DNA from: Flavobacteriaceae bacterium
Lineage (GTDB): Bacteria; Bacteroidota; Bacteroidia; Flavobacteriales; Flavobacteriaceae
Direction: 5' to 3'
DNA: 64,000 bases
Assembly: GCA_004762155.1 (NCBI GenBank)
Contig: SIHP01000004.1
Location: 124,001 to 188,000, forward strand
In this document: positions 28,110 to 50,807 of the stretch, piece after piece
Layout: every line of letters begins with the position of its first letter
How positions within the stretch are numbered: position 1 is the first letter of the stretch
Notes under the pieces: generated by a model
Told to the model about the DNA's origin: nothing
Database searches by the model: none
The model's input: only the letters and a program-made list of their open reading frames with translations
Made by a program: the position numbers and the translations under genes

Positions 28110-28922
28110 TTAATGTTCTAAGAAATCAATTAAATGTTTTCTGTATTTGTAATAATCATCGTGCTCTAATATTGCCTTTCTAGATCTTGGTCTCTCAAAA
28201 TCAATAGCTAAAACATCTCCAATTTTAGCACTAGGTCCACTCGTCATCATTACAACTCTATCCGCTAAAAAGATAGCTTCATCTACATCATGAGTAATCA
28301 TTACTGCTGTAATTTTTTCTTTATTCCAAACATCAATTAGTACATCTTGTAATTGACCTCTGGTTAACGAATCTAGCATTCCAAAAGGTTCATCTAGTAA
28401 CAAAACCTTAGGTTTTATAGCAAACGCTCTAGCAATACCAACACGTTGTTGTTCACCTTGAGAAATTTCCGAGGCTCTTTTATTTAAAGAACTATCCATA
28501 CCTACTTTGTGTAGGTAATATTTACAGATATCTTCTTTTTGTTTTTTTGTGGCATCTGGATATGCTTTTTTAACGCCTAACATTACATTCTCAAATGTTG
28601 TTAGCCAAGGCATTAAACTTGGTGATTGAAAAATAACACCTCTATCTGGTCCAGGTCCTTTAATACTTGAACCTAAAACTTTTATTTTACCATCGCTTAT
28701 TGGGTTTAAACCAGCAATCATTGAAAGCATCGTTGTTTTTCCACATCCAGAGTGGCCAATAATGGTAATAAATTCTTCTTTTCGTATTTGTAAATCTAAA
28801 TTTTCTAGTACTACATAATCTCCTTTTGGAGTAGGGTATACCTTTTTTAAGTTCTCTAAATCTAACATAACATCGTTAGAAGGAAACTTTTCCATTTTAT
28901 AATGTTCTTTTACTACACTCAT
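28110..28922 (-). CDS. nrtD: ABC transporter ATP-binding protein, nitrate type (NrtD-like)
   Basis: 270 residues. Walker A GHSGCGKTT, signature SQGEQQRVGIARA, Walker B LLLDEPFGMLD, H-loop TAVMITHDVDEAIFLADRV. The phrase MTSGPSAKIGDVLAIDFERPRSR is typical of NrtD/TauB relatives in nitrate operons. Energises nitrate/nitrite uptake at the inner membrane together with the second ATPase 19 nt upstream. Gene letter follows common use and is not certain. Confidence 0.88.
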   Translation of the reverse strand: MSVVKEHYKMEKFPSNDVMLDLENLKKVYPTPKGDYVVLENLDLQIRKEEFITIIGHSGCGKTTMLSMIAGLNPISDGKIKVLGSSIKGPGPDRGVIFQSPSLMPWLTTFENVMLGVKKAYPDATKKQKEDICKYYLHKVGMDSSLNKRASEISQGEQQRVGIARAFAIKPKVLLLDEPFGMLDSLTRGQLQDVLIDVWNKEKITAVMITHDVDEAIFLADRVVMMTSGPSAKIGDVLAIDFERPRSRKAILEHDDYYKYRKHLIDFLEH

Positions 28923-28941
28923 TTCTCTTACATTTTAAAGG

Positions 28942-29787
28942 TTACCATCTATAATCTCTTGGCTGAATATCTGGAAGCTCATAAACAACATCACTTGTTG
29001 TAGCAGCTTGTTCTTCACCTAGATCCATTAAATAGGCAATAATTTCATTACGTGTTTTTTTGTATTCATCATTGTCATTTAAAGTTGTTTTATCTCTAGG
29101 TCTTTCTATATTCACTTTAAATTCTGGTCCTAATGTTGCATTTGGACCTGGTTTTAAAGGAATAATTCTGTCTGCCATATAAACAGCTTCATCAACATCG
29201 TTTGTAATTAATAAGGCGGTACGTTTATTCGTTTCCCAAATACGTAAAATTTCATCTTGTAAGTTACCTCTTGTTAACGCATCTAATGCGCCTAAAGGTT
29301 CGTCCATTATAATCATTTCTGGATCCATTACTAAAGCTCTAGCTACAGATACTCTTTGTCGCATTCCACCTGATAATTCTTTAGGGAATTTATTAATAGC
29401 ATGAGTTAAACCAACCATTTCAACAAAGTTTTTAACTTTTGTAGCAACTTCTTCTTTTGATTCTTTAGGAAAAGCTTCTTTAGCCGCCATTTCTATATTG
29501 CTAAAAACAGATAACCATGGAAGTAATGAATAGTTTTGAAAGATTACACCACGTTCATGACTGGTATCTTCTACCTTTTCTCCTTTGAAAAGAACTTCTC
29601 CTTCAGTTGGTTTTAATAAACCATTAATAAGGTTTACTAAGGTTGTTTTTCCACTACCTGAAAATCCAACAATAGCAACAAATTCTCCTTCTTCAATTGT
29701 TAAGTTTATATTGTCAAGAATTTCACCTTTATATTCTTTATCAGGACTGTATGTCTTGTATATATTTTTTAATTCTAAAATAGCCAT
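28942..29787 (-). CDS. nrtC: ABC transporter ATP-binding protein, nitrate type (NrtC-like, no solute-binding domain)
   Basis: 281 residues. Walker A GFSGSGKTTLVNLINGL, signature LSGGMRQRVSVARALVMDPE, Walker B IIMDEPLGALDALTR, H-loop (ITNDVDEAVYMADRI) with N in place of the usual H. Cyanobacterial NrtC carries an extra NrtA-like C-terminal domain; this one ends at the ATPase. With NrtD it would form a hetero-ATPase pair; the asparagine switch residue hints that one of the two sites is weak. Confidence 0.87.
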   Translation of the reverse strand: MAILELKNIYKTYSPDKEYKGEILDNINLTIEEGEFVAIVGFSGSGKTTLVNLINGLLKPTEGEVLFKGEKVEDTSHERGVIFQNYSLLPWLSVFSNIEMAAKEAFPKESKEEVATKVKNFVEMVGLTHAINKFPKELSGGMRQRVSVARALVMDPEMIIMDEPLGALDALTRGNLQDEILRIWETNKRTALLITNDVDEAVYMADRIIPLKPGPNATLGPEFKVNIERPRDKTTLNDNDEYKKTRNEIIAYLMDLGEEQAATTSDVVYELPDIQPRDYRW

Positions 29788-29824
29788 AATTACTCAGTTT
29801 TAATAGTGTTAAATTGAACTTATT

Positions 29825-31060
29825 TTAGATAGTTTCTTTCTCAAAAGAAATTAAATTTTGAATAAATAACATTATTCTATCTAATGCGAAACCAATTAAA
29901 CCAATAATAAACATGGCAACAATAATTTTTGCATTAGAATCGTTTGCACCATTTTGAAATTCTTCCCAAACAAATGATCCTAAACCTGGTGATTGTGCTA
30001 ATAATTCAATAGCAATTAATACCATCCAAGCCACAGATAACGTAATTCTTAAACCTGTAAAAATTAAAGGAAGTGAAGCTGGAAGTATTACTTTAAATAT
30101 TTTTTGAAAGTTTCCTAATTTTAAAACCTTAGCTACATTAATATAATCTGTATCTACAGAAGCAACTCCCATAGCAGTATTTACTAATGTTGCCCACATT
30201 GAACATAAACCTACTGAAATAAAGGAAATAATAAAAGAACTGTCTCCTTCTGAATTTCTTAATAAAGTTGTAACAATCATTGTAACTAATAATAGCCAAA
30301 CTACTGGAGATACTGGTTTAAATATTTGAATAATCCAGTTAACAGAAGTTCTTAAAGTTGGACTTAAACCTGTAATAATTCCAATAGGAACAGCAATTAA
30401 TAAGGCTAATAAAAAACCAGCAAATACTGTTTTTAAACTTGTAACAACTTGATCTACAAATGAAGGTCTACCTGTATAAACTATTGCGTTTTTACCATCT
30501 GCTACTCTTTGTTCATTTAATTTAGCTGTTTTTTCTTTAAAAGCTTTTTTATCAGCTCTTACAATTTTATAGTCTACCCATAAAGTGTAAAAAGCATTTT
30601 TTGTTTGTTTTGGAGATGGCAATGTAACTGGTACTTCTTTTTTTTCATCAGAAGATAATCCATAATTGATGTCATAAGTTCCCTTATCATTTTTTAAAGC
30701 TACAGCATGTATATTAGCTTCTGAAAGTTTTTTAAGATCTTCTATATCATCAGATATAATAAATTGTCCATCTAATTTGTCTTTTGCAGATATAATAATA
30801 TTCTTAATTCTTTCTGCTTCTGCATCTCCACCAACTTCTCTTGCTTTTTCTATTTTAGAGTCTGCAAGACTGTTATATAGAGAATTTGCACCAATATTCC
30901 ATAATAACAAGAAAGCAAAAATAGATAATATTGGAGCTCCAATTTTATTGAAAGTTTCTTTGGTGTTTTTTTTAGTTTCTTCACCAGAGATTAACCTAAT
31001 TAAAGGTTCTAAAAAACCAAAACCAATAAATCGTATAACTTTTATAATAGAGTCTTTCAT
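29825..31060 (-). CDS. nrtB: Nitrate ABC transporter permease, NrtB-like, with long N-terminal extension
   Basis: 411 residues. The permease core (about 205-411) shows LKTVFAGFLLALLIAVPIGI, SPVVWLLLVTMIVTTLLRNS and the EAA-loop-like KVLKLGNFQKIFKVILPASL, then ITLSVAWMVLIAIELLA. NrtB proteins are usually near 280-320 residues. Here an extra section after a first TM (about 42-62) spans residues 65-200, rich in K/E (KIEKAREVGGDAEAERIKN), and likely sits in the periplasm. First of three overlapping-function genes after nrtA. Confidence 0.88.
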   Translation of the reverse strand: MKDSIIKVIRFIGFGFLEPLIRLISGEETKKNTKETFNKIGAPILSIFAFLLLWNIGANSLYNSLADSKIEKAREVGGDAEAERIKNIIISAKDKLDGQFIISDDIEDLKKLSEANIHAVALKNDKGTYDINYGLSSDEKKEVPVTLPSPKQTKNAFYTLWVDYKIVRADKKAFKEKTAKLNEQRVADGKNAIVYTGRPSFVDQVVTSLKTVFAGFLLALLIAVPIGIITGLSPTLRTSVNWIIQIFKPVSPVVWLLLVTMIVTTLLRNSEGDSSFIISFISVGLCSMWATLVNTAMGVASVDTDYINVAKVLKLGNFQKIFKVILPASLPLIFTGLRITLSVAWMVLIAIELLAQSPGLGSFVWEEFQNGANDSNAKIIVAMFIIGLIGFALDRIMLFIQNLISFEKETI

Positions 31061-31120
31061 CTCTTTTGAATTTTATGTTTGTTTGTGAGTGAGTGTGTTT
31101 GTGATGTGTTTGTTGTTTTT

Positions 31121-31152
31121 AAACAACAGGAGAAAAATTTCTCCTGCTGTTT
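31121..31152 (-). promoter_or_regulatory. Intercistronic hairpin between nrtA and nrtB
   Basis: Fifteen-base arms (31121-31135 and 31138-31152, core CAGGAGAAA/TTTCTCCTG) with one mismatch. On the minus strand it is not followed by T residues, so it is unlikely to stop transcription. It probably protects the nrtA mRNA 3' end so that binding protein is made in excess of permease; this role is inference from similar operons. Confidence 0.6.
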
Positions 31153-31180
31153 GATCATAAAACAAATGATTTAAAAAGAA

Positions 31181-32566
31181 CTATTTTTCTTTATTACCAA
31201 TTTTAAAAGAATTGATATATCCTAAAGGATCTTTAGCGTCATACTTATTACCATCGATAAAATCTGTAGTAGCAGGTTTGTATCCGTCTGTTGTAGGTAT
31301 GTCTGTAGCTGCTATTTTACCTTCAGTTACTAGTATATCTGCTGCTTTTTTCCAAATATCAGGTCTGTATATCTCTTTAGCTTTATCATGGTACCATTCA
31401 GCTGGTTTTGCATCAGGAATTTGTCCCCATCTTCTCATTTGAGTTAAAAACCAAATCGCATCAGAATAAAATGGATATGTTGCATTATAACGATAGAATA
31501 CGTTAAAATCAGGCATTGCTCTTTTATCTCCTTTTTCAAATTCAAAAGTACCAGTCATCGAATTTGCTAATACAGCTTCTGGAGCACCTACATATTGAGG
31601 TTTAGATAATATTTTTACGGCTTCAGCTCTGTTACCTGGTTCATCTAACCATTTTCCAGCTCTAATTAAAGCTTTAGTTATAGCAACAGATGTGTTAGGA
31701 TATTTTTCAGTAAACTCTTTAGTCATTACAAATACTTTCTCAGGATTATTTTTCCAAATATCATAGTTTGTAGTAACTGGAACTCCAATGCCTTTAGAAA
31801 CAGCTTGTTGATTCCACGGTTCACCTACACAGTAACCATAAATAGTTCCGGCTTCTAATGTAGCTGGCATTTGTGGTGGAGGAGTTACAGACAATAAAAC
31901 ATCAGCACCAATTTGTCCTTGAATATTATCAGCAGAATACATACCAGGATTGATTCCAGATGCAGCTAACCAATATCTAATTTCATAATTATGTGTTGAT
32001 ACAGGAAATACCATTCCCATTTTAAATGCTTTACCTTCATTTTTATAATCATCAATTACAGGTTTTAAAGCTTCAGCACTAATAGGATGAATAGGTTTTC
32101 CGTTCTCATCTTTTTTAACATGAGGTTTCATTCCTTCCCATACTTTATTAGAAACAGTAATACCATTACCATTTAAATCCATAGAAAAAGGAGTAACTAA
32201 TTCTGCTTGACGACCAAAACCTGCTTGTGCTGCAATTGGTTGTCCTGCCAACATGTGTGAACCATCTAGTTGACCATCAATTACACGATCTAAGATATTT
32301 TTCCAGTTAGATTGTGCTTCAACAGAAACGAATAAACCTTCATCTTCAAAAAACCCTTTTTCCTTAGCAATAGCCAAAGGAGCCATGTCAGTTAATTTGA
32401 TAAAACCAAATTTCAATTGTGGTTTTTCTATATCTAAAGTCTTTGCAGGTGCTGTTTTAGTAGTTGTTTCTTTTATTTTTTCCTTTTTTGTTTCTTTCCC
32501 TCCACATGCTAATAGAAGTAATGAAAAAGAAAACAATAATGATGTTTTTGTAATTAATGATTTCAT
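31181..32566 (-). CDS. nrtA: Nitrate/nitrite-binding lipoprotein NrtA
   Basis: 461 residues. Lipobox LLLAC, lipidated C21, followed by a K/T-rich linker. The CmpA/NrtA fold begins near residue 48 ([30 protein letters not shown]), then [45 protein letters not shown] and [19 protein letters not shown], all family hallmarks. Binds nitrate or nitrite at the periplasmic face. First gene of nrtABCD-porin, under a 20-bp palindrome 21 nt before the start. Confidence 0.94.
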
Positions 32567-32587: not shown

Positions 32588-32607
32588 AATAAGTATTAAT
32601 ACTTATT
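32588..32607 (-). promoter_or_regulatory. Nitrate-locus operator, nrtA copy
   Basis: AATAAGTATTAATACTTATT is a perfect 20-bp palindrome containing TAAGTA-N4-TACTTA at 32590-32605. The proximal TAAGTA edge is 23 nt from the nrtA start. A TATATTTG -7 box on the minus strand (32614-32621) lies just upstream, placing the operator at about +1 to +20 if that box is used. Confidence 0.8.
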
Positions 32608-32609
32608 TT

Positions 32610-32955
32610 CATACAAATATATAAGTAGATGTAATTCTATTATATGCAAATAGAATTATAAAAATATCTTTTTTAAACATCATTAAACATGCGAAAAAGC
32701 ATAAGAAAAGTATAAGAAACTGTTTTTTAAGTATATGTAAATACGTATAAATTAGTAATGTGTTTTTAAGTACGTATTTTTTTACTTTTAAATGATAAAT
32801 TGTAATTAAAAAATAGTCAATTAAAATAAAATTAAAACCATTAACTTCTTTATAGTTTTAATTAATCTCCTTTAGAGCATGTATTATGTTTAAATAAATA
32901 ATTGTCTGCTTATTTTAAGTATTTGAGTGAAGTTGTTTATACTATACATCATATA
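32610..32955 (-). promoter_or_regulatory. Long AT-rich upstream region of nrtA with recurring TACGTA/TAAGTA half sites
   Basis: No gene fits here. TAAGTA occurs at 32728-32733, 32767-32772 and 32916-32921, and TACGTA in ATACGTAT near 32741-32748 and GTACGTAT near 32770-32777. They are half sites or a different palindrome; TACGTA also occurs upstream of the globin and nirB genes. Whether they bind the same regulator cannot be told. Confidence 0.35.
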
Positions 32956-33012: not shown

Positions 33013-33720
33013 TTATTTAATAAGTTTGTTTAACCAGTCGGCTTCAGATAAACCTTTATGTTTTTTGTCATTTCCATAAGGATCTTTTCCTCCTTTAAAA
33101 TAATCTTTTATAGCAGTTAAAGGTATAGTATCACTTAATTTTTCTGGAACGGCATACTTATGATTTCCATGAAAATCATGACACTGTAAGCATGTAGACC
33201 AATTTTGTTTACTGATTAATGTTTCATGATCTATATCTAAAGGGTCGTCTTCAACTACTAAATCTTGATGGCAATTCATACAATAATCACCAGTATTTAT
33301 AGTAACACGAGCTCCATGATGTTCTGAATGACAAGTAATACAAGTAGTTGCATCAATATTTTTAATAGCTTCGTTAAAACGTGGTTCTGAGAAACGATAA
33401 ATAGGATGTCTATCATTTGGTCTGTCATGACATTCTAAGCAATTATTTGCACTAACATCTTTTGTCCCAAAATCTACACTAGCTTTTCTTACACCAACAC
33501 CATATGATATGTTTGATTGAATTTGTTGTAATAAATTACCTTTTGCATTTGCATGACAAGTTATACAAGAAAGATCTTCATGGCCATTATTCATTGGTCC
33601 AATAGAAACATATTGTTCTGTACTTTTTAAAGTAAAAAAATAAAAAACACCAATTCCGGTAATTAAACCTATTATGATTCCTGAAAATTGTCTCTTTCTT
33701 AATGGATTGATTTTAAACAT
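33013..33720 (-). CDS. Membrane-anchored pentahaem c-type cytochrome
   Basis: 235 residues. Uncleaved N-terminal helix (FSGIIIGLITGIGVFYFF, residues 12-29), then five CxxCH haem sites at 52-56, 94-98, 127-131, 147-151 and 177-181. Extra histidines (H47, H105, H134, H135, H165) can give bis-His coordination, as in NrfH/NapC/cytochrome c3-like shuttles. The tail after 190 is haem-free. Periplasmic electron carrier. Last gene of an operon with globin, haem lipoprotein, 4-TM protein and flavin reductase; electron acceptor not evident. Confidence 0.88.
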   Translation of the reverse strand: MFKINPLRKRQFSGIIIGLITGIGVFYFFTLKSTEQYVSIGPMNNGHEDLSCITCHANAKGNLLQQIQSNISYGVGVRKASVDFGTKDVSANNCLECHDRPNDRHPIYRFSEPRFNEAIKNIDATTCITCHSEHHGARVTINTGDYCMNCHQDLVVEDDPLDIDHETLISKQNWSTCLQCHDFHGNHKYAVPEKLSDTIPLTAIKDYFKGGKDPYGNDKKHKGLSEADWLNKLIK

Positions 33721-33736
33721 AAAAGCAACTTTATAG

Positions 33737-34765
33737 TTATATTTCTAGAATAATTTTTTCGCTTAATGGATAACTTATACATGTTAATATGCTACCTTCA
33801 TTAACTTCTTTTTCTGGTAAAAAATGACCTTCAGTCATTTTTATTTCTCCTTCAATACATTTAGCTTTACAAGCTGCACACATTCCAGATCTACAAGAGT
33901 AAGGGATTACAATATTATCAAACATGGCTTGTTGTAATATTGTGGTATCACCTTTAACCTTTATTTGATGTTCTTTTCCAGCGTGTTTAATACTAACACT
34001 ACTCATTAAGTCTTTACCAGAAAGTTTTATTTCTGGAAGTTTAAATACTTCTACGGTTATTTTTTCACGACTGATTCCGTTGTCTCTAAGAATTTCTTTA
34101 ACTTTTTCCATGTAACCAAACGGTCCACAGATCATGTACTTATGATTATCATATTTTAAACCTCTATTTTCAAAAATAGAATTCAATAATTTTTTTGTTA
34201 GGAAGCCAGAATGATATTTGTCTTTTCTTGAGTTTTCAGATGATATTACATGTTCTACAAATAGATTATTAGGATATTCGTTTTGTAGTGTTAAAATTTC
34301 ATGATAAAAAATAATAGATTCTATATTCTGATTTGCATAAACCAGTAATATTTTAGAGTTTTTTTCCTTTGTTAAAATTGATTTTAAAATAGAAAAAATA
34401 GGAGTGATACCACTACCACCAGCAAATAAAACGTATTGAGTTTGTTTCTTTTCTTCTGGTTGAATAAAAAAAGAACCCATTGGTTCATCAACAACTAGTT
34501 TGGTGCCAATAGTTAAAGAATCATGAATATAATTTGAAACTAATCCTTTTTCTACACGTTTAATAGTAATTTTTAAGTCTTTATCAGTGTAAGGATTACT
34601 ACTAAAGGAATATGCTCTTTTGTGAACTTTATCTTTTATAGGTACATGAATAGTTAAAAACTGTCCTGGTTTATAGCTTAATTTTTTAAAGATATTTCCG
34701 TTTTTAAAACTAATACTTAAAGCATCGTCTGTTTCTTTGATTATGTCTTTTACTAATAATTTCAT
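33737..34765 (-). CDS. FAD/NAD(P)H reductase with C-terminal plant-type [2Fe-2S] domain
   Basis: 342 residues. FAD domain (1 to about 105) with RAYSFSSNPY (RxYS flavin motif), NAD domain (about 110-235) with FAGGSGITPIFSIL and MICGPFGYMEKV, and a [2Fe-2S] domain (about 250-342) with CRSGMCAACKAKC (Cx4Cx2C) and the fourth ligand in ILTCISYP. Same order as PaaE/Hmp-like oxidoreductases. It takes electrons from NAD(P)H in the cytoplasm. Neighbours offer a globin (recalling flavohaemoglobin) and a membrane di-haem candidate (recalling ferric reductase/NOX), so either may be its partner. 16-nt gap to the cytochrome, 38 to the membrane protein. Confidence 0.9.
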   Translation of the reverse strand: MKLLVKDIIKETDDALSISFKNGNIFKKLSYKPGQFLTIHVPIKDKVHKRAYSFSSNPYTDKDLKITIKRVEKGLVSNYIHDSLTIGTKLVVDEPMGSFFIQPEEKKQTQYVLFAGGSGITPIFSILKSILTKEKNSKILLVYANQNIESIIFYHEILTLQNEYPNNLFVEHVISSENSRKDKYHSGFLTKKLLNSIFENRGLKYDNHKYMICGPFGYMEKVKEILRDNGISREKITVEVFKLPEIKLSGKDLMSSVSIKHAGKEHQIKVKGDTTILQQAMFDNIVIPYSCRSGMCAACKAKCIEGEIKMTEGHFLPEKEVNEGSILTCISYPLSEKIILEI

Positions 34766-34803
34766 TTTGAGAGCGTGTAATGTTGTTTAGGGCTTTGGTT
34801 TTT

Positions 34804-35283
34804 TTATTTATAATAAAAAACCATGGTAATATGAAAAAACATAATAATTGTAACTATTATAGAGAATGCTACGTGAGCTATCATCCAACCTTTAAATAAT
34901 AGATTGTTATTACTCTTAATAATATCTAAGTTTATATAACCTAATAAAGTATTTGCAAAAAAGATGTAGGATAAAAGAAGCAAATATCCATAACCTAAAT
35001 TTATACTATGTATATAAAATAAAATAGGACTAATGGCTCCTAACCATTTATGTATTAGATTCATTTTTAATGCATATTTTCTTAACTTGGGAATGATTCT
35101 AGTATAGGTTAATACCCATTGAAATGATATAAAAATAGCCAAACCTAAGCCAGACCATCTTTTGTACATTTGTTTTTGTTGAAGCTGTGAAAGCCAGTTC
35201 CACTCTAAATCAAAAAAGAACTGTATAAAAAAAAGTAGGAGTAAGGTTAAGCCTAAAAAGCTAGATTTATTGGTTGTTTTCAT
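34804..35283 (-). CDS. Four-helix membrane protein, candidate di-haem b electron carrier
   Basis: 159 residues with about four hydrophobic helices (10-25, 46-62, 80-112, 130-157). Four histidines only: H78 and H92 on one stretch, H137 and H151 on another, each pair 14 apart. This H-x13-H pattern on two helices is how ferric reductase, NOX and cytochrome b proteins hold two b haems stacked across the membrane. I did not recognise a named family. Position between a cytoplasmic flavin/[2Fe-2S] reductase and periplasmic c-type cytochromes fits transmembrane electron transfer; haem binding is inference. Confidence 0.75.
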   Translation of the reverse strand: MKTTNKSSFLGLTLLLLFFIQFFFDLEWNWLSQLQQKQMYKRWSGLGLAIFISFQWVLTYTRIIPKLRKYALKMNLIHKWLGAISPILFYIHSINLGYGYLLLLSYIFFANTLLGYINLDIIKSNNNLLFKGWMIAHVAFSIIVTIIMFFHITMVFYYK

Positions 35284-35414
35284 ATATTAATGTACATGAA
35301 ATTTAAAGTTTGTTTTGGTTAAGTAATTTGCCCATAGCTTTGGTTTAATATCGAAACAGCTATGGACATAATTACAAAACACTCTCAAACAAAAAAATCA
35401 ATTTTTTATAGTAG

Positions 35415-36236
35415 TTATTTACTTACAACTAAATGTTTCATAGTTTCATATGATGATAATTTTTTAACGCTGTCTAAAAATACTTCTGCGCTAGGTAAAA
35501 AATTACCTTCTTCTGGCCATTTTTTGCCTATTTCAGGTTTGTCACTTTCTTTAAATTCACCAATTTCTTTTAAATACTGCTTGTAAATATCTACAGTACC
35601 GTCTGCATATGATTTTAATACATCAACTGTTTCTTTATAGGTTAAAGAATCTTTAGGGTATTGCCAAGTAGTTGCTCCCATAACATCACCTAGTTCCCAG
35701 TCTGTCTTTGGCGATTGTTTATGGTCGTTATGACAAGAAACACATGCTCCAGCACCAGCTAAATCAGCAAACATTGCTGTATGTAGTTTTTGTTCTTCGT
35801 CATAAAAAAATTGAGGCTTTTGATCAACTTTAATTTTTTCAAATAGATTAGCTTGCTTTCCTATGAACTTATTTGCAGCATTTACGGGATAATCAGATCC
35901 TAAGTATAAACCTAAAGGAACAGGACTTTTCTTTATGCTGGTAGCTACACCTCTTAAAAATAAGGCAGGTAATGGACCTGCTTCAATATCATCTTTTCTC
36001 CAGTCTTCATCAAATTTCATCCCTTGTTTTTTTCCTTTACCTACAATTGCTTTTGTATATAAAGTTCTTGTTACATCATTTTCTTTGGCTACCATTTCTA
36101 AAACTTCACCAACAGCAAATACTTTTGATTCTTTACCAACAGTTGAAGTTTCTTCAGGAACTCCACCACAAGAGGTTAATAATTTACTCGCTAATATGGT
36201 GAATGTTAAAAGTGAAAGTTTGTTTAGTTTTTTCAT
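35415..36236 (-). CDS. Tll0287/DUF3365-like mono-haem lipoprotein
   Basis: 273 residues. Lipobox LLTSC, lipidated C23. A PAS-like Tll0287 (DUF3365) fold is suggested by residues 35-160 (ALPALFLRGVA-like GPLPALFLRGVATSIKKS and LYLGSDYPVNAANKF). One CVSCH haem motif at 165-169, then NDHKQSPKTDWELGDVMGA, typical of the family. Such proteins are periplasmic haem carriers or sensors. 15-nt gap from the globin gene, but 131 nt to the 4-TM gene. Confidence 0.85.
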   Translation of the reverse strand: MKKLNKLSLLTFTILASKLLTSCGGVPEETSTVGKESKVFAVGEVLEMVAKENDVTRTLYTKAIVGKGKKQGMKFDEDWRKDDIEAGPLPALFLRGVATSIKKSPVPLGLYLGSDYPVNAANKFIGKQANLFEKIKVDQKPQFFYDEEQKLHTAMFADLAGAGACVSCHNDHKQSPKTDWELGDVMGATTWQYPKDSLTYKETVDVLKSYADGTVDIYKQYLKEIGEFKESDKPEIGKKWPEEGNFLPSAEVFLDSVKKLSSYETMKHLVVSK

Positions 36237-36251
36237 GTTGTTGTTATTTTA

Positions 36252-36665
36252 TTAATAAGAAGCATCAATCATAACCTTAGCCATGGTAGTATAAGTAGTT
36301 GTCCAAGCATCTTTAATTTCTGGAGTAAATTCATCACCAAGACCAGCTGAAAGTGTACCAAGTAATGCAGCACCAACAGTATCATAATGAGAAGCTTCAA
36401 CTTTATAATCTACATGTCGTTTTCCTAATCCTTCTAAAACAGGTATTAATGCAGGTAAATTACTTAGTCCGGCTACTGCAGCTCCAAGCATAGTCATTAA
36501 TTTATTTCCTTGTTCTTTCATAGAACTATCACTATTAGGAAATAAAGGTTTTAATTTGGGGTCTAATTCAAAGAGTTTTGAATAAAATATTTCTGCGGCT
36601 GTACCAGCAATTGGTTTTACTTTTTCAAATGAATTTTGTACAAGTGTGATAGTTTTTTGTTCCAT
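36252..36665 (-). CDS. Single-domain globin with flavohaemoglobin-type haem pocket
   Basis: 137 residues. Aligning by eye with Vitreoscilla haemoglobin gives B10 Tyr28 (IFYSKLF), E7 Gln52 (MKEQGNKL), F8 proximal His84 (GKRHVDYKV) and Tyr94 (SHYDTVG), the same pocket as flavohaemoglobin. No reductase domain is attached, but a separate FAD/2Fe-2S reductase is in the same operon. NO dioxygenation (NO plus O2 to nitrate) or oxygen supply are the likely roles. First gene of its operon, under the TAAGTA-N4-TACTTA operator 28 nt upstream. Confidence 0.9.
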   Translation of the reverse strand: MEQKTITLVQNSFEKVKPIAGTAAEIFYSKLFELDPKLKPLFPNSDSSMKEQGNKLMTMLGAAVAGLSNLPALIPVLEGLGKRHVDYKVEASHYDTVGAALLGTLSAGLGDEFTPEIKDAWTTTYTTMAKVMIDASY

Positions 36666-36693: not shown

Positions 36694-36709
36694 TAAGTAT
36701 TACTACTTA
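36694..36709 (-). promoter_or_regulatory. Nitrate-locus operator, globin copy
   Basis: TAAGTA-TTAC-TACTTA, six-base perfect arms, 28 nt before the globin start. No good TAnnTTTG box lies next to it. TACGTA is at 36726-36731, further upstream. Confidence 0.8.
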
Positions 36710-36807
36710 GTTGTAAGCAAATTTATACGTAATGGATTAAATTAATTATGCGAATTAACAGTAAAGAAAATATTTTATAGCATATAATAAATTATTATTA
36801 TAACTAA

Positions 36808-36861: not shown

Positions 36862-37584
36862 TTAGGTATCTAAAAAGTAATTATGTTCCTTTATTTCTTT
36901 TTTAAGTAGATCTAAATTATTAATACCTATTTTTTTTCCTTTAGCTGTTATTAGTTTTTCTTTTTTTAATAATGAAAAAACTCGTATTACTTGTTGTTCA
37001 GTAGTTCCAGCATAATCTGCATATTCACGTCTACTCAAAGGTAAATTTAAAAAACTATTCAAATTACCAAATTTTCTGTGTACATACAATAAAGTATCTA
37101 TTACACGTTCACGAACTGTCATTTGAGAAATAGATTTTACTTTAGATTCACTCCTGTTAAGTTCATTGGCATAAAAAAGCATCATATCGTACCCGAATTT
37201 TGAACTTTTAAAAAGAGCATCTTGTAAAGCATCTTTAGAAAAATAACATAAAATAGTTTCTTGTAAAACCGTTGCTCCAATAGAGTAGTATTCTTGAGTT
37301 CCAAAACCTCTATGACCAATGATTTCTCCTTCTTTAGCAAAACGAACAATTTGTTCTCTACCATTTATACCCGTTCTAAATACTTTTACAGAACCTTTTA
37401 AAATAAAAAATAATCCATTTACAGGTGTACCTTCAATAATAAATTGTTGTCCTTTTTTTAATTTTAAAGTATTCTTATTTTTAGTAAATGTTGGATCAGA
37501 AAAGTTTGATAAATTATTTTTAATCAGGCAATTTTCATTTAAACAATCATTACAAGAAAAAGAGAGGTTTGCATTTTGTCTCAT
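36862..37584 (-). CDS. Crp/Fnr family regulator with FNR-type cysteines
   Basis: 240 residues. N-terminal cysteines C11, C14 and C19 (CNDCLNENC), then a cyclic-nucleotide-like barrel (40-125) with C113 at the position of E. coli FNR C122 (QETILCYF). Four ligands in this layout indicate a [4Fe-4S] cluster sensing O2 or NO. Dimer helix about 130-160 and winged HTH (about 170-235, LSRREYADYAGTTEQQVIRV). In the recognition helix the FNR E209/S212/R213 positions read Q/I/R, so the half site is unlikely to be TTGAT. Own promoter and terminator. Best candidate, with the NarL-like protein, for reading the locus operator. Confidence 0.88.
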   Translation of the reverse strand: MRQNANLSFSCNDCLNENCLIKNNLSNFSDPTFTKNKNTLKLKKGQQFIIEGTPVNGLFFILKGSVKVFRTGINGREQIVRFAKEGEIIGHRGFGTQEYYSIGATVLQETILCYFSKDALQDALFKSSKFGYDMMLFYANELNRSESKVKSISQMTVRERVIDTLLYVHRKFGNLNSFLNLPLSRREYADYAGTTEQQVIRVFSLLKKEKLITAKGKKIGINNLDLLKKEIKEHNYFLDT

Positions 37585-37643: not shown

Positions 37644-37674
37644 CAAAATTATGTATTTGGCTTATTTAACCCAA
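37644..37674 (-). promoter_or_regulatory. Promoter of the FNR-like gene
   Basis: On the minus strand TTG at 37674-37672 (-33) and TAATTTTG at 37651-37644 (-7), spacer 20 nt. It begins inside the end of the upstream rubredoxin gene. No locus operator overlaps it. Confidence 0.65.
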
Positions 37675-39095
37675 ACTTTTTTTTCAAAATTACTTTTCGG
37701 TGCTTCACATAAAGAACAATGATAAGAATCTGGTAAATCGTTAAAGGATGTTCCTACTAAAACTCCTTGAGTAACATCTCCATAAGTTTCATTATAAACA
37801 GTTAAACACTCGGTACATTGGTATATTTCTAATTCTGTAACTTCTTTTTTTGATTCATGTGATGAATTATCGTCTATTTCATTACCAAGTTGTTCAAAAT
37901 AAAGTTGACTTAATTCCATTAATAAACCAGGGAGTTCTACTTTATCTACATCCTGCACATGCATTATATATTCCCGAGTATTTGGATCGAAATTTTTAGC
38001 ATATAAGAGATTGTAAGTATCTCTAATAACAAAATCATTTAAGTTTTCTGGTTGCTTGTTTTTTTCAATAACTATAGATGTAAAATTATATTTATCAATA
38101 CCTCTATTAGTGATACCAAATGTTAAGCCATAGGTGCTAATATCATTTTGGTCGAAATTGGTTACTAAGTATTTTTTTAAATTTAATGCATCTTTATCAT
38201 CTACTGGTAAATCCCAATTTAATTCTAGCATAGAATGACGAACATTTATACCATATTTACCTAAAAATTTTTCCCATTTTAATTTTGTTTCAATAGGTAT
38301 ACCTTTTACAATAAAAGATTTCCATGGAGTAATTGATATTTTACCAATTTTATTTTCAGCACATAATTCGCACATGGCTTTCAAAAAACTTAAATCATAT
38401 CTATTATTTCTCCAATATAAACCTAACCAATATTTTCCACCTCCAATTCTATTCATTCCTTCGTAATATGGAAAAGGATCAAAAGGTACTTCTAAAGGTT
38501 TGTTTACAGTTCTATTATTAGTATCAATAGCATCATTAACTAATTGAAATATTGTTTCTGTATCTTCAGGTTCTTCAATTAAAATATTTTCTATTGCTTT
38601 TTCCACTTTATCCATGTCCCAACTATAAATTAAAGCAGGATACATTTGTGTTTTCTTCCAATCTGGTAATCTTATATATAAATACCAATAATCTTCATTT
38701 TCTGAAGCGATAAAGTTAATATGACCAGAAAATAAAGGAACCAAACGTTGTTTAGGGTCTGTTATATTAACACGTAACTTAAGATCGTATTTAAATTGCT
38801 CAATTACATATAAATAACGTGAACTTGTTAACCAAGATGTGTTTGGAAAAATATCTGAAGAAACATAAGATGAAACCAAGTTATGTGTGTCTTTTTCTCT
38901 AGGGTTGATAATCCTAAGTTTATCAAACTGTTTAAGTTTTTCGTCATCAATTTCTTCAGGAAAAATAATATCTTGTCTTGATCCAAATGAAATAGTGTCT
39001 AAACCTAAACTTTCAGCAGCTTCACAAATATAATTAAGTTCTCCTGGAGATAAAACACCACCATTTATTATAATTCTGTTTAAGTCTCTTCTCAT
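37662..39095 (-). CDS. Rubredoxin-domain protein on nitrite/sulfite-reductase half domains
   Basis: 477 residues. The C-terminus (about 422-477) is a rubredoxin: YQCTECLTVYNE and YHCSLCEAPKS (two CxxC), with GTSFNDLP. The rest has two regions resembling NIR_SIR ferredoxin-like half domains: about 8-45 (NGGVLSPGELNYICEAAESL, ending GSRQDIIF) and about 225-275 (ending KISITPWKSFIVKGI). It lacks the Cx5C/Cx3C sirohaem-cluster cysteines, so it cannot be a sirohaem reductase itself. Its ATG overlaps the nitrate reductase stop by 4 nt, so a role in electron delivery to, or assembly of, that enzyme is inferred. Confidence 0.82.
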   Translation of the reverse strand: MRRDLNRIIINGGVLSPGELNYICEAAESLGLDTISFGSRQDIIFPEEIDDEKLKQFDKLRIINPREKDTHNLVSSYVSSDIFPNTSWLTSSRYLYVIEQFKYDLKLRVNITDPKQRLVPLFSGHINFIASENEDYWYLYIRLPDWKKTQMYPALIYSWDMDKVEKAIENILIEEPEDTETIFQLVNDAIDTNNRTVNKPLEVPFDPFPYYEGMNRIGGGKYWLGLYWRNNRYDLSFLKAMCELCAENKIGKISITPWKSFIVKGIPIETKLKWEKFLGKYGINVRHSMLELNWDLPVDDKDALNLKKYLVTNFDQNDISTYGLTFGITNRGIDKYNFTSIVIEKNKQPENLNDFVIRDTYNLLYAKNFDPNTREYIMHVQDVDKVELPGLLMELSQLYFEQLGNEIDDNSSHESKKEVTELEIYQCTECLTVYNETYGDVTQGVLVGTSFNDLPDSYHCSLCEAPKSNFEKKVWVK

Positions 39096-42000
39096 GATAC
39101 TAAAGCATTACTGTTACTAAGAATTTCTTTTACTTCTGTTTTACAACTTCCACAACCTAAACCAGCACCTGTTTTGTTACATAATTCTGTGAAATCTGTA
39201 CAACCACCTTTAATCATTTCTTCAATATTACCTTCGCCTACTTGACTACAAGAACATACTAATTTACCTAATACAGGTTCAGCATTGGAAGAACCTCTTA
39301 ATAGTGTTTCGCGTTTATCGGCCATTTCAATTTTACTCTCAATCATGCCTTTAAACTCAGCAAATTCATTTTTATCGCCCATTAAAACAGCTCCTATTAA
39401 AAGATCGTCTTTAACAATACATTTTTTGTAATATCGCTTTTTTAGGTCTGTAAAAATAATTTCTTCATAGCTGTCATCATTTTCTGGAACTTCAATGTTT
39501 CCAATGCTACAAAGATTAAGATCATTAAATTTTAAAATATTCATTAAAACAGATCCATCGTAGGCACTACTAACATCTCCAGCTAAAAAGTTAGCTAATA
39601 TATTTGCTTGTTCTTCTGCTGCAGAAGTAATACCAAACAACTGATTATTGTATTCAGCAATTTCTCCAATAGCAAAAATATCTGGATCAGATGATTGTAA
39701 ATGTTGGTTAACTTTAACACCACGTCTACAAACCAAACCATTTTCTCTAGCAATTTCTATATTTGGTATGGTACCAATAGCATATACAATTGCATTTGCT
39801 GTTAAAAATTTACCACTTTTTAGAGTGATGTTTAAGTCACCTGTATCTTCATCATCAAAAACAGTATTTACTTCATTATCAAAATAAATTTGAATTCCAC
39901 GTTCTTGAACATCTAAAGCTAAAAGTTTACTAGAAATTTGATCTAATTGGCGTTCCATTAATCGAGAAGCACGTTGTACTATAGTAATTTTAACGTTTTT
40001 ATGCTTCATAGCAGCAGCAAGTTCTAAACCTAATAAACCACCACCAACAATAACTACATGTTGTTGTTCAGGAGGTAAACCAGTTTCATCTAAGTAGTTT
40101 TTAAAACTATCAGCATCACTTTTATTACGCATTGTAAAACGTCCAGGTAAATCTATTTGAACATCTTGAGGTATAAAAGCACGACTACCAGTTGCTAGAA
40201 TTAATTTAGTAAAAGTATGTGTGTCTTTATTACTATCAGTAACTATTTTATTTTTTTTATCAATTTTATTGATAAGAGTTTCTGGATGTAATGTAACATT
40301 TAGTTTGGCTAATTCTTGTTGTTTTATTTTTAGTAATTCTTCCCAAGTTAATTCTTCTGTAACATATTCAGGAAGTAAAACTCTATTGTAGAATAGATTA
40401 GGTTCTTTAGAGAAAACATGAATCTCATCTTGTTGATTAAATTCTCTATAGTTTTGAATAAATCTAAAAGCGGCAGCACCAGCACCAACAACTACAATTT
40501 TATCAGTTGATTTTTTATATTTATTAACAGCTACTCTTGTAAATTTAAAATCAGGTTCTTTTGACTGTGGATCTAGATGTGTGTTTGTTAAATTATTTGC
40601 TCTGTTTAAGTCGCTTTGTAATTGTTTTCCCCAATGCATTGGTAAAAAGACAACTCCTTTTTTTATTGCATCGGTAATTTTAGCACGAACTCTAACAATA
40701 CCATTTTCTCCTTTTATTTCTGTAATATCTCCATTTTCAATTTTATACAAAAATGCATCTACAGGATTAATTTCTAAAACAGGAGTAGGGTAGTGTGTAT
40801 TTAATCTAGATACCTTACCAGTTTTAGTCATGGTATGCCATTGATCTCTAACACGGCCTGTAGTTAAAATTAAAGGATATTTTCCGTTTGGAAGCGTTGA
40901 TGTGTTTTTAATACCTTTAGGTAAATTAAATATAGCCTTTTTTGATGGCGTATAGAATTGTTTATCTTCAAAAAGTCTAGCTGTACCTTTATGTCTATAA
41001 TCAGAAACTGGCCACTGGAAAGTTCCTTCATTCTTTAACCTTTCATAATTTAAAAAAGAAACATCAATGTTTGTTCCTTTGGTCATAGAAGCGTATTCTG
41101 CATAAATTTCCTCTGTACTATTGTAATTAAAACCTCTAAAGCCCATTCTTTGTGCAAAATCACATAATATTTCAACATCAGGTCTTGCTTCTCCAGGAGC
41201 ATCTACTTGTTTAGGTAAGTAAGAAATACGACGTTCTGAGTTTGTCATTGTTCCTTCTTTTTCTAACCAACCTGCAGCTGGTAAAACTAAATCTGCATAT
41301 GCAACAGTATCTGATTTAAAAGAGACATCTTGAACAATTACAAATTTAGAATTTTTCATGGCACGTTCAATTCTGTGTGAATTAGGTAAGCTAACTAATG
41401 GATTTGTACAAACAATCCATATTGCTTTTAACTCACCAGATTCTAGAGCATCAAACATTTGTGTGGCAGTAAAGCCTGGTTTAGGAGATATTTTATCTAC
41501 ACCCCAAAATTGAGCAACCTCACTTCGGTGTTCAGGGTTTAATAGATTTTTATGTACAGCTAATAAATTTGCCATTCCACCGACTTCTCGTCCGCCCATT
41601 GCGTTTGGTTGTCCCGTTAATGAAAACGGTCCAGAACCAGGTTTACCTACTTGTCCGGTAATTAAAGATAAATTTAATAAAGCAAAGTTTTTATCGGTAC
41701 CAATCATGCTTTGATTAAGCCCCATTGCCCACATACTAATGAATCCTTTAGAAACACCTATATATTCAGCTGCTAACTTTATTTCTTTTTCTGAAACACC
41801 ACATAATTTTGAAGCTTCTTTTATTGAAGTATCAAATATTTGTTCTTTATATTGATCAAAACCTTCTGTATGGTTTTTTATAAATTCTTTATCTATTAAC
41901 CCTTTTTCAAACAATACTCTACCAATTGCATTGTAAAGTATAATGTCTGTTCCTGGTAGTAATTGAAGATGTAAATCTGCAAAATTTGCAGAATCTGTTT

Positions 42001-42616
42001 TTCTTGGATCAATTACTATAATTTTTACATCAGGGTTTTGTTCTTTATGTTGCTCAATTCTTCTAAAAAGAATTGGATGACACCATGCTGGATTTGCACC
42101 TGTTATTAAAAAACAGTCAGCTAATTCAATGTCAGCATAAGAAATTGGTACACTATCTTCACCAAAAGTTTTTTTGTAACCAACAACTGCAGAACTCATA
42201 CATAAACGAGAGTTTGTGTCTATGTTATTTGTGCCTAAAAAACCTTTAGTTAATTTATTTGCTATATAATATTCTTCTGTTAAACTTTGTCCCGATACAT
42301 AAAAACCAACGCTATCAGGACCATATTTTTTAATAATTGATTTAAAAACACTTGCTGCTCTATCTAATGCATCATCCCAACTAACTCGTTCACGAGGATG
42401 CGATCTGCTCCAACGCATTTCAGGGTATAAAATTCTGTCAGAAGTATCATTTACAACATAGTGTAAATTCATACCTTTAGAACAAAGCATTCCTTTATTT
42501 ACAGGGTGATCTTTATCTCCTTCTACAAAAACTTTATTATTGATATCTTTTTTAACAATAATTCCGCAGCCAACACCACAATATGAACAGGTAGTTTTTA
42601 TTTCGTTTTTAAACAT
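39092..42616 (-). CDS. nasA: Single-chain assimilatory nitrate reductase: molybdopterin + FAD/NAD + BFD [2Fe-2S]
   Basis: 1174 residues. N-terminal [4Fe-4S] ligands C10, C13, C17 and C45; molybdopterin domains to about 690 (CLFITGANPAWCHPILFRR-like DCFLITGANPAWCHPI, GQPNAMGGREVGG, VTTGRVRDQWHTMTKTG-like). A NirB-like FAD/NAD oxidoreductase occupies about 703-1110 (KIVVVGAGAAAFRFI, VVIVGGGLLGLELA, DIFAIGEIAEY). A BFD-like [2Fe-2S] domain ends it (about 1120-1170: CSCSQVGEG, GLGCGSCKTE). In Klebsiella and Bacillus the catalytic and flavin parts are separate (NasA/NasC, NasC/NasB). Cytoplasmic nitrate to nitrite using NAD(P)H. Confidence 0.94.
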   Translation of the reverse strand: MFKNEIKTTCSYCGVGCGIIVKKDINNKVFVEGDKDHPVNKGMLCSKGMNLHYVVNDTSDRILYPEMRWSRSHPRERVSWDDALDRAASVFKSIIKKYGPDSVGFYVSGQSLTEEYYIANKLTKGFLGTNNIDTNSRLCMSSAVVGYKKTFGEDSVPISYADIELADCFLITGANPAWCHPILFRRIEQHKEQNPDVKIIVIDPRKTDSANFADLHLQLLPGTDIILYNAIGRVLFEKGLIDKEFIKNHTEGFDQYKEQIFDTSIKEASKLCGVSEKEIKLAAEYIGVSKGFISMWAMGLNQSMIGTDKNFALLNLSLITGQVGKPGSGPFSLTGQPNAMGGREVGGMANLLAVHKNLLNPEHRSEVAQFWGVDKISPKPGFTATQMFDALESGELKAIWIVCTNPLVSLPNSHRIERAMKNSKFVIVQDVSFKSDTVAYADLVLPAAGWLEKEGTMTNSERRISYLPKQVDAPGEARPDVEILCDFAQRMGFRGFNYNSTEEIYAEYASMTKGTNIDVSFLNYERLKNEGTFQWPVSDYRHKGTARLFEDKQFYTPSKKAIFNLPKGIKNTSTLPNGKYPLILTTGRVRDQWHTMTKTGKVSRLNTHYPTPVLEINPVDAFLYKIENGDITEIKGENGIVRVRAKITDAIKKGVVFLPMHWGKQLQSDLNRANNLTNTHLDPQSKEPDFKFTRVAVNKYKKSTDKIVVVGAGAAAFRFIQNYREFNQQDEIHVFSKEPNLFYNRVLLPEYVTEELTWEELLKIKQQELAKLNVTLHPETLINKIDKKNKIVTDSNKDTHTFTKLILATGSRAFIPQDVQIDLPGRFTMRNKSDADSFKNYLDETGLPPEQQHVVIVGGGLLGLELAAAMKHKNVKITIVQRASRLMERQLDQISSKLLALDVQERGIQIYFDNEVNTVFDDEDTGDLNITLKSGKFLTANAIVYAIGTIPNIEIARENGLVCRRGVKVNQHLQSSDPDIFAIGEIAEYNNQLFGITSAAEEQANILANFLAGDVSSAYDGSVLMNILKFNDLNLCSIGNIEVPENDDSYEEIIFTDLKKRYYKKCIVKDDLLIGAVLMGDKNEFAEFKGMIESKIEMADKRETLLRGSSNAEPVLGKLVCSCSQVGEGNIEEMIKGGCTDFTELCNKTGAGLGCGSCKTEVKEILSNSNALVS

Positions 42617-44128: not shown

Positions 44129-44154
44129 CAAAATTAAGTATAAATACTTAATTT
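44129..44154 (-). promoter_or_regulatory. narK promoter -7 box and nitrate-locus operator
   Basis: Eleven-base perfect arms (44131-44141 and 44144-44154) around AA; core TAAGTA-TAAA-TACTTA at 44135-44150. A TAATTTTG -7 box (44129-44136, minus strand) overlaps its proximal edge by two bases, so a bound protein would sit between -33 and -7. A further TAAGTAAGTA lies at 44163-44172. Confidence 0.85.
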
Positions 44155-44288: not shown

Positions 44289-44960
44289 TTAGTTAAGGTT
44301 ATGTTCTTTAGCCTTATTACTTAGTTCCAAAAGGTTTTTAACTTTAAGTTTTTTCATTAAATTAAAACGATGTACTTCAGCTGTACGCTTACTAATATTT
44401 AACTCTTCGGCAATGTCTTTGTTGTTTTTTAATTCTAAAACTAAAGATAAAATTTGTTTTTCTCTTTTGGTAAGTTTAAAAAGATTTTCATCATTGTTTT
44501 TAGAGTTTTCAATAGGAGAATTTGTAGAATTAGTACCGCTAATGAAATTATTCATTATAATAGTAGAAACATCTCCTGTAAAATACTTACCTCCATTTGA
44601 TATTTTATGTAAAGCTTTTAAAAACTCTTCTTTACTGGCTCCTTTTAATAAATAACCATCTGCTCCAGCTTGAATAGCTTTAACTACATATTCTTCTGAA
44701 TCATGCATGGATAATACTAAAGTTTTAATATCAGTATATTTTTTATTTACTTCAGTAACAACCTCAATACCATTTAATTCAGGCATTCTAATATCTACAA
44801 TTAAAATATTTGGTTTATTGTTAGCTATAACATCTAAAGCTTCTTTACCATTAGAAGCTTCATCAATAACTATAATGTCAGATTGATCTTCTAAAAGTGC
44901 CTTTATTCCGTTTCTTACCAATACATGATCATCAGCTAAAACAACTTGTATTTTCTCCAT
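44289..44960 (-). CDS. NarL/LuxR-type response regulator
   Basis: 223 residues. Receiver domain with D10-D11 pocket, phospho-acceptor D56 (ILIVDIRMPE) and K105-region LLKGASKEE. Linker, then GerE/LuxR HTH (about 155-220: LTKREKQILSLVLELKNNKD, ISKRTAEVHRFNLMKKL). Partner of the HisKA_3 kinase two genes upstream. NarL-type proteins bind TACYYMT heptamers; TACTTAT in the nrtA operator fits that heptamer, though in divergent rather than convergent arrangement. 46-nt gap from ridA. Confidence 0.92.
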   Translation of the reverse strand: MEKIQVVLADDHVLVRNGIKALLEDQSDIIVIDEASNGKEALDVIANNKPNILIVDIRMPELNGIEVVTEVNKKYTDIKTLVLSMHDSEEYVVKAIQAGADGYLLKGASKEEFLKALHKISNGGKYFTGDVSTIIMNNFISGTNSTNSPIENSKNNDENLFKLTKREKQILSLVLELKNNKDIAEELNISKRTAEVHRFNLMKKLKVKNLLELSNKAKEHNLN

Positions 44961-50785: not shown

Positions 50786-50807
50786 CAAATATAAGTAATT
50801 GTACTTA
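50786..50807 (-). promoter_or_regulatory. nirB promoter -7 box and nitrate-locus operator
   Basis: TAAGTA-ATTG-TACTTA at 50792-50807. TATATTTG -7 box on the minus strand at 50793-50786 overlaps its edge by two bases, the same geometry as narK. TACGTA follows at 50817-50822. Confidence 0.85.

Follow-up and report, generated by a model that had tools for sequence, protein, structure and literature searches.

We examined a 64,000-nucleotide (nt) stretch of a Flavobacteriaceae bacterium genome (GenBank assembly GCA_004762155.1, contig SIHP01000004.1, positions 124,001 to 188,000; hereafter the window), in which five consecutive open reading frames (ORFs) on the minus strand, running from 36665 down to 33013 in the order GLB, TLL, TM4, FNR and PEN, had been proposed in an earlier note to form an uncharacterised redox operon. 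The cassette lies between an upstream gene for a Crp/Fnr-family regulator and downstream nitrate uptake genes of the nrtABCD type, this name and those of narK and nirB elsewhere in the window being our presumed assignments. ORF calls are mechanical with uncurated start sites. The five genes are as follows.

36252-36665, minus strand: GLB, single-domain globin, 137 amino acids (aa; PF00042, 70 bits)
35415-36236, minus strand: TLL, mono-haem c Tll0287-like (haem Cache) lipoprotein, 273 aa (Pfam Tll0287-like, PF11845, 28.7 bits, cut-off 24.1)
34804-35283, minus strand: TM4, predicted five-helix di-haem ferric-reductase-like membrane protein, 159 aa (invariant histidines and AlphaFold2 model)
33737-34765, minus strand: FNR, NAD(P)H reductase with FAD, NAD and plant-type [2Fe-2S] domains, 342 aa (PF00970, PF00175, PF00111)
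33013-33720, minus strand: PEN, membrane-anchored pentahaem cytochrome c, 235 aa (multihaem cytochrome c Pfam families, CxxCH count)

Conservation of the cassette

Relatives were collected with a TM4 alignment, scanned against a single genome of each species; this yielded 69 loci and, with the window, 70, whereas a single TM4 sequence used as a query of genome contigs found no relative. Since the scan is keyed on the TM4 pattern it misses cassettes without TM4, which are covered by PEN and globin scans of an even set of 149 family genomes, some of them also the source of scan loci. The record titles of 68 of the 69 loci bear Flavobacteriaceae names, assuming that we place the genera correctly, and one reads 'Bacteroidia bacterium'. 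Labels of neighbouring genes at the 70 loci are likewise presumed, with NapA, NapB-like, NrfH, NrfA, NrfD, ResB and CcsA checked on one example each.

TLL, TM4, FNR and PEN (the core) are contiguous in 69/70 loci, ruling out a chance run of unrelated genes, and all five genes are present in order in 59/70, with median intergenic gaps along the cassette of 20, 57, 8 and 10 nt. In the exception, L094, the contig ends in an ORF with two haem motifs resembling the start of PEN and the globin leads the locus, bringing the loci with a globin before the core to 60. The five-gene operon is thus borne out by its co-occurrence across genomes. Ten Aquimarina loci have no globin before the core (a further Aquimarina locus, L077, keeps it in front); FNR remains with the membrane protein and pentahaem genes in these ten, all of which have a small haem-c protein added after the core and seven of which also carry a gene pair for ResB and cytochrome c assembly (Pfam, tested on L087). 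Seven of the ten encode a double-globin protein of 291-296 aa downstream on the opposite strand (Pfam, checked on L087), namely L082 (13936-14820), L085 (13895-14779), L087 (13893-14783), L089, L090, L092 and L093. For L080, L086 and L088, two of which lie at contig ends, the fetched stretch holds no globin before or after the core.

Across the 49 loci with the five cassette genes, the regulator and nrtA, pairwise distances of FNR, TM4, TLL, PEN and the regulator correlate at r 0.71-0.86, and those of the core genes among themselves at r 0.75-0.86, supporting a single evolving unit of core and regulator to which the globin is more loosely tied and nrtA more loosely still (r 0.51-0.56). On present evidence the cassette is real, conserved and undescribed within the open-licence literature (titles and abstract starts, subscription papers lying outside the search), and represents a new arrangement of known kinds of protein rather than new chemistry.

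The cassette proteins

The membrane protein had been credited with four transmembrane helices and two histidine pairs. The pairs are confirmed, H78, H92, H137 and H151 being invariant in 70/70 copies, and the helix count is revised to five by an AlphaFold2 model from 70 alignment rows (mean predicted local distance difference test score (pLDDT) 86.7; it replaces an earlier model from 11 rows, mean pLDDT 72.4), which predicts long helices at 6-23, 38-60, 65-92, 100-121 and 127-157. In this model H78 and H92 are on helix three and H137 and H151 on helix five. The ligands of the NADPH oxidase (NOX) of S. pneumoniae, SpNOX, are reported to lie on TM3 and TM5, with H69/H129 binding the inner haem and H83/H142 the outer haem (PMC11564096). 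The spacing of the putative TM4 haem-ligand residues, 13-14 residues on two helices, is that of the NOX/ferric reductase domain (FRD) superfamily, and positive residues in the TM4 sequence suggest that H78 and H137 are on the cytosolic side. The window copy scores 18.8 bits against Ferric_reduct (PF01794), below the cut-off of 28, and 57/70 TM4 members match this family at E<=0.1 (best E 1.9e-6).

A VIA structural alignment sets residues 34-159 of the TM4 model on residues 26-150 of the SpNOX chain (Z 7.3 to 8qt6), an offset that would put the four TM4 histidines within ~1 residue of the SpNOX ligands as judged from the aligned ranges, individual residue pairs not being shown. This Z score is within the range of common helical bundles, so it is the histidine pattern that carries the NOX argument; 36 entries rank above 8qt6, many of them unrelated helical bundles, and in the list bundles such as talin stand among haem proteins (designed di-haem 4D2, superoxide oxidase, b561, cytochrome b and SpNOX), and we regard the VIA rows for TM4 as only supportive. 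Foldseek with the TM4 model gave no PDB match at E<=0.001, and profile searches of the PDB with the TLL, TM4 and PEN alignments returned nothing.

Like the NOX and ferric reductase domain proteins (SpNOX; MsrQ with Fre), the cassette would carry two haems on histidine pairs of two helices and would use an FNR-type reductase inside the cell to send electrons outward. MsrQ and Fre are also described as separate proteins with no fusion to a FAD/NAD domain (PMC5676040). In contrast to the six helices fused to a FAD/NAD domain of typical NOX proteins, TM4 has five predicted helices and the reductase is a gene of its own with a [2Fe-2S] domain; dedicated pentahaem and haem-lipoprotein partners are a further difference. 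Because the four invariant histidines correspond to those that bind haem in a bacterial NOX, the earlier suggestion of a ferric-reductase/NOX chain taken apart into separate proteins is well supported.

As previously proposed, FNR is a flavin/[2Fe-2S] reductase, matching the Pfam domains FAD_binding_6, NAD_binding_1 and Fer2, with the [2Fe-2S] cysteines C291, C296, C299 and C329 and the FAD and NAD residues conserved over 70 copies. It scores 230.9 bits against PaaE and 172.6 against the PRK10684 NADH oxidoreductase, both below the respective cut-offs, and 138.9 bits against a flavohaemoprotein model. The closest PDB relatives of GLB include 3s1i and, in fourth place, Vitreoscilla haemoglobin (1vhb). 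Its pocket residues Y28 (62/62), Q52, H84 and Y94 (60/62 each) are kept, and the first three, which we take to be TyrB10, GlnE7 and HisF8, give the flavohaemoglobin-like pocket anticipated in the earlier note. The globin domain of flavohaemoglobins has a glutamate near its end, and this site is Ser or Ala in nearly all GLB copies. GLB has no recognisable export signal.

The operon thus contains the pocket residues and the FAD/NAD reductase of a flavohaemoglobin (Hmp), encoded by separate ORFs of 137 and 342 aa in place of one chain. The earlier reading of a flavohaemoglobin taken apart is the weaker of the two comparisons, because FNR has an extra [2Fe-2S] domain, which flavohaemoglobins are not known to have, and follows the membrane chain, and because the window's genome has a separate flavohaemoglobin-sized globin-domain ORF (403 aa) elsewhere.

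The two haem-c proteins were aligned from 31/70 (TLL) and 32/69 (PEN) copies. TLL is a mono-haem lipoprotein as claimed, with CxxCH in 70/70 and an invariant lipobox C23. PF11845 was found in 31/31 members scanned, with no other Pfam domain, and ~80 residues follow the match. The only conserved cysteines are C23, C165 and C168, belonging to the lipobox and CxxCH (55/70 copies have just three cysteines and 15/70 have four or six), and TLL lacks a conserved counterpart of the axial cysteine that marks the redox, stand-alone type of haem Cache domain. It resembles the Tll0287/DUF3365 haem-Cache domain, as presented in a 2026 preprint, in its above cut-off PF11845 match and single CxxCH, and differs in being a lipoprotein, in having no conserved axial cysteine and in being encoded with a membrane electron chain (PMC12889525). 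Slow NO (nitric oxide) release is reported there for one signalling member of the family (PMC12889525).

PEN has five CxxCH motifs in 69/69 copies, in agreement with a pentahaem cytochrome, and its further invariant histidines (H47, H105, H134, H165, H184 and H187) would suffice for five bis-His haems, which suggests a carrier. PEN was rejected as an NrfH (TIGR03153, 27.4 bits against a cut-off of 134.2).

Promoter signals and nitrate genes

The regulatory features and co-regulated neighbours of the cassette in the window are listed below, operators being given without strand.

36862-37584, minus strand: Crp/Fnr-family regulator with FNR-like cysteines C11, C14, C19 and C113 (Pfam cNMP_binding and HTH_Crp_2)
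36748-36761, minus strand: putative activator dyad CTG-N8-CAT, centre ~29 nt upstream of the -7 box (promoter consensus)
36718-36725, minus strand: -7 promoter box TAAATTTG of the five-gene operon (fits TAnnTTTG)
36694-36709: operator TAAGTA-N4-TACTTA of the five-gene operon, just downstream of the -7 box (motif search)
32614-32621, minus strand: -7 box TATATTTG of nrtA (promoter comparison)
32590-32605: operator before nrtA (motif search)
28110-32566, minus strand: nrtA, nrtB and two ATPase genes for nitrate ABC uptake, co-regulated neighbour (ORFs, names presumed)
44135-44150: operator before narK (motif search)
50792-50807: operator before nirB (motif search)

The motif TAMGTAN4TACKTA has four perfect sites in the window against 0.02 expected, preceding the globin gene, nrtA, narK and nirB, and an operator precedes 50/62 globin ORFs across the loci. 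The Bacteroidota-type -7 box has the consensus TAnnTTTG. It begins 22-28 nt before the centre of the operator in 45/50 operator-bearing GLB promoters (shuffled mean 0.4) and 47/53 operator-bearing nrtA promoters (shuffled mean 0.6), which places the operator just downstream of the likely transcription start. In regulator (21/32), narK (10/15) and nirB (9/14) promoters the start of the box is 6 nt past the centre of the operator, so that the operator would overlap the core promoter; either arrangement resembles repression. Conserved in the consensus of the 45 globin and 47 nrtA promoters is a dyad, (A/C)TG-N8-CAT, centred ~29 nt upstream of the -7 box. This places it at about -40 relative to the presumed start, where activators bind, and makes it a putative activator site; the window's nrtA promoter keeps the CAT half only. 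No -7 box was found at the fixed distance in moeA (9) or double-globin (7) promoters, and no operator precedes the regulator gene of the window. The seven Aquimarina tandem globins, each preceded by an operator of the cassette type, have a Trp-containing C-terminal tail.

The regulator gene directly precedes the globin gene in 53/70 loci. Three N-terminal cysteines and one central cysteine are the signature of FNR-type [4Fe-4S] regulators, and this pattern is present in the regulator, with C11, C14 and C19 in 98% and C113 in 87% of 55 copies. Because of this FNR-like cysteine set, repression that is released by O2 or NO is possible. The window also encodes a histidine kinase with an N-terminal PilJ domain (45408-47225), containing a P-box that we liken to that of NarX, and a LuxR-type response regulator (44289-44960). 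This pair might sense nitrate and is a candidate for binding the upstream dyad.

Labelled nitrate or nitrite genes are found near the cassette in 60/70 loci, with three more having molybdenum-cofactor genes only (fetched stretches), and nrtA directly follows PEN in 38/70. At L075, L082, L092 and L093 the globin stays by the core though the fetched stretch has no labelled nitrate or cofactor genes. Among the 149 family genomes, TM4 was found in 11 and the PEN profile in the identical 11. NrtA occurs in 24, including all 11 with the cassette (Fisher p 1.8e-10), and together with the shared operator this upholds the previously suggested tie to nitrate uptake and reduction. The link is strong, and it is not absolute. 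All 24 NrtA genomes have a NasC-like protein. Of the 13 that lack the cassette, nine have the regulator gene immediately beside nrtA, and in the fetched stretches no remnant of any of the five genes was found near nrtA, indicative of an optional block at a fixed place; near relatives cleanly lacking the cassette at the same spot amount to a natural deletion experiment.

The ammonifying nitrite reductase NrfA exceeds its cut-off in 8/11 NrtA genomes with the cassette and 0/13 without (p 2.2e-4), and a second NapA-like match is present in 8/11 and 2/13, respectively (p 0.011), both p values ignoring kinship. The NapA-like match of G017, the one tested, is named NapA by NCBIfam. NirK over cut-off was found in 2/11 and 2/13, and sub-cut-off NrfA-family matches in G000 and in the cassette-less G132. 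GLB was rejected as a plain flavohaemoglobin replacement, flavohaemoglobin-sized ORFs occurring in 3/11 genomes with the cassette and 2/13 without, which is no difference. TM4 and PEN profiles matched only the window's own genome among 395 genomes across the phylum, and the single TM4 sequence gave seven extra matches there, all weak (E 0.002-0.01).

Proposed function and alternatives

We tentatively propose that the cassette, which stands in the nitrate cluster of many Flavobacteriaceae without a described function, is an accessory nitrogen-oxide protection module of nitrate-using members of this family, a reading to which we give slightly less than an even chance. The cassette, carried by many nitrate-using marine flavobacteria, would combine a small haemoglobin with a wire of haem proteins along which electrons could leave the cytoplasm across the inner membrane. 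The electron path drawn in the earlier note is plausible, its haem content and electron transfer being deduced from sequence: FNR would take electrons from NAD(P)H on FAD and then [2Fe-2S] and hand them to the inner haem of TM4 (H78/H137), from which they would reach the outer haem (H92/H151) and, outside the inner membrane, the bis-His pentahaem PEN and the haem-c Cache lipoprotein TLL. There, NO or nitrite-derived species would be reduced or bound, while the cytosolic globin, probably re-reduced by the cassette's FNR, would remove NO arising as a by-product of nitrate and nitrite reduction. We infer in this scheme the direction of electron flow, the link between FNR and globin, NO as substrate and TLL as end point. 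The upstream dyad and operator layout suggest that the FNR-like regulator may keep the cassette and nitrate uptake off until released.

A precedent for this protective role is found in Bradyrhizobium, where a globin and a flavoreductase are reported to protect nitrate-assimilating cells from NO (PMC4724949). In its narK-bjgb-flp-nasC operon, genes for taking up and assimilating nitrate are similarly accompanied by those for a single-domain globin and an NAD(P)H flavoreductase, and the proposed job of the operon is the removal of NO from nitrate reduction; unlike the cassette, this four-gene operon comprises no membrane di-haem protein, pentahaem cytochrome or haem-c lipoprotein (PMC4724949), and in the window nasC and narK are separate units. 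A more specific version, which we consider doubtful, has the NOX-like FNR-TM4-PEN chain feed TLL as an enzyme acting on NO or nitrite-derived species and, with the cytosolic globin, would provide a two-compartment NO defence from one operon. No description of such a defence was found in the open-licence literature. If true, a three-protein NOX-like chain plus globin would join the known means of bacterial NO management. The cassette also offers a defined system for the role of stand-alone haem-Cache domains, left at 'likely redox-related' in the preprint (PMC12889525).

Several observations weigh against nitrogen-oxide protection. With respect to the proteins, stand-alone haem-Cache domains are reported to be more redox-like and to bind NO weakly, and removal of the axial cysteine from the stand-alone protein of the same preprint did not yield slow NO release (PMC12889525), so the missing conserved cysteine in TLL proves little. 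PEN looks like a pure carrier and no catalytic NO site is evident outside the membrane. The three cassette genomes with a flavohaemoglobin-sized globin ORF include that of the window, and globin distances correlate with those of the core at r 0.58-0.72, looser than the core genes mutually. With respect to distribution, 7/70 loci have no labelled nitrate or molybdenum-cofactor gene in the fetched stretch, and 13/24 NrtA genomes lack the cassette, from which it follows that nitrate use does not need it. The cassette is patchy, TM4 being matched in none of three other sampled genomes of the window's genus, and the 24-genome comparison is uncorrected for phylogeny. In the window's genome neither NrfA nor NirK exceeds its cut-off and a second NapA-like match is absent, so that its NO source would be assimilatory. 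Lastly, G035, a 1.6-Mb family genome and the only one of the 149 besides the 11 with a close single-domain globin (62% identical; C7:31892-32287), had no TM4 or PEN found.

The looser tie of the globin also bears on the idea that one operon serves two functions, the globin scavenging NO and TLL-TM4-FNR-PEN working elsewhere outside the inner membrane, for example by providing reductant to haem-c proteins or to damaged proteins in the periplasm. The four core genes are more tightly linked to one another than to the globin, the ten Aquimarina loci without an upstream globin have the added haem-c protein and, in seven, the ResB/cytochrome c assembly pair noted above, and MsrQ with Fre, a split FRD/reductase pair, is said to feed a periplasmic repair enzyme (PMC5676040). 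However, 67/70 loci have a globin, ahead of the core in 60 and a few genes further down in 7, and the 13 cassette-less NrtA genomes show no remnant of the five genes near nrtA. We consider separate functions unlikely.

The enrichment of NrfA and NapA-like proteins in cassette genomes, and the nap-type or nrf-type cluster just upstream of the regulator gene in 18/70 loci (9 + 9), would fit an NAD(P)H-fed electron supply for the periplasmic nitrate and nitrite reductases NapA and NrfA. The window's genome, however, has a full cassette and neither NrfA nor a NapA-like protein, G110 also lacks both and has NirK, and the clusters examined bring partners of their own, Fe-S and NrfD proteins in the nap cluster of L051 and an NrfH in the nrf cluster of L050. 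We consider this supply role improbable.

The resemblance of TM4 to ferric-reductase and NOX domains likewise allows a ferric (or cupric) reductase, or a superoxide-forming NOX, meeting the iron need of nitrate assimilation or serving redox balance; we hold this to be very unlikely given the promoter signals shared with nitrate genes and the invariant pentahaem carrier, to our knowledge not a part of ferric reductases. Equally slim are the prospects of a sensory complex, in which TLL would be an extracytoplasmic NO or redox sensor poised by the TM4-PEN chain: TLL has no conserved axial cysteine and NO sensors are reported in the haem-Cache family (PMC12889525), but TLL is a lipoprotein that stands free and whose only Pfam domain is PF11845, most loci have no kinase or chemoreceptor gene with the core (by family clustering, unlabelled ORFs being unannotated), and a separate PilJ-domain protein family is present in 5/70 loci.

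Other genes near the cassette were also noticed. The nap cluster of L051 (1718-5547) encodes NapA together with two tetrahaem proteins, one of them NapB-like, an Fe-S protein and a membrane protein of the NrfD/DsrP type; the same families occur in L019, L022-L024 and L026, and they differ from the proteobacterial NapC/NapGH set. In the window, a protein with a nitrite/sulfite-reductase half-domain and a C-terminal rubredoxin domain (37662-39095) adjoins a NasC-like fusion protein (39092-42616), and a DUF4202 protein (47237-47821, 254.6 bits) is encoded within the nitrate cluster, flanked by the sensor kinase gene and nirBD.

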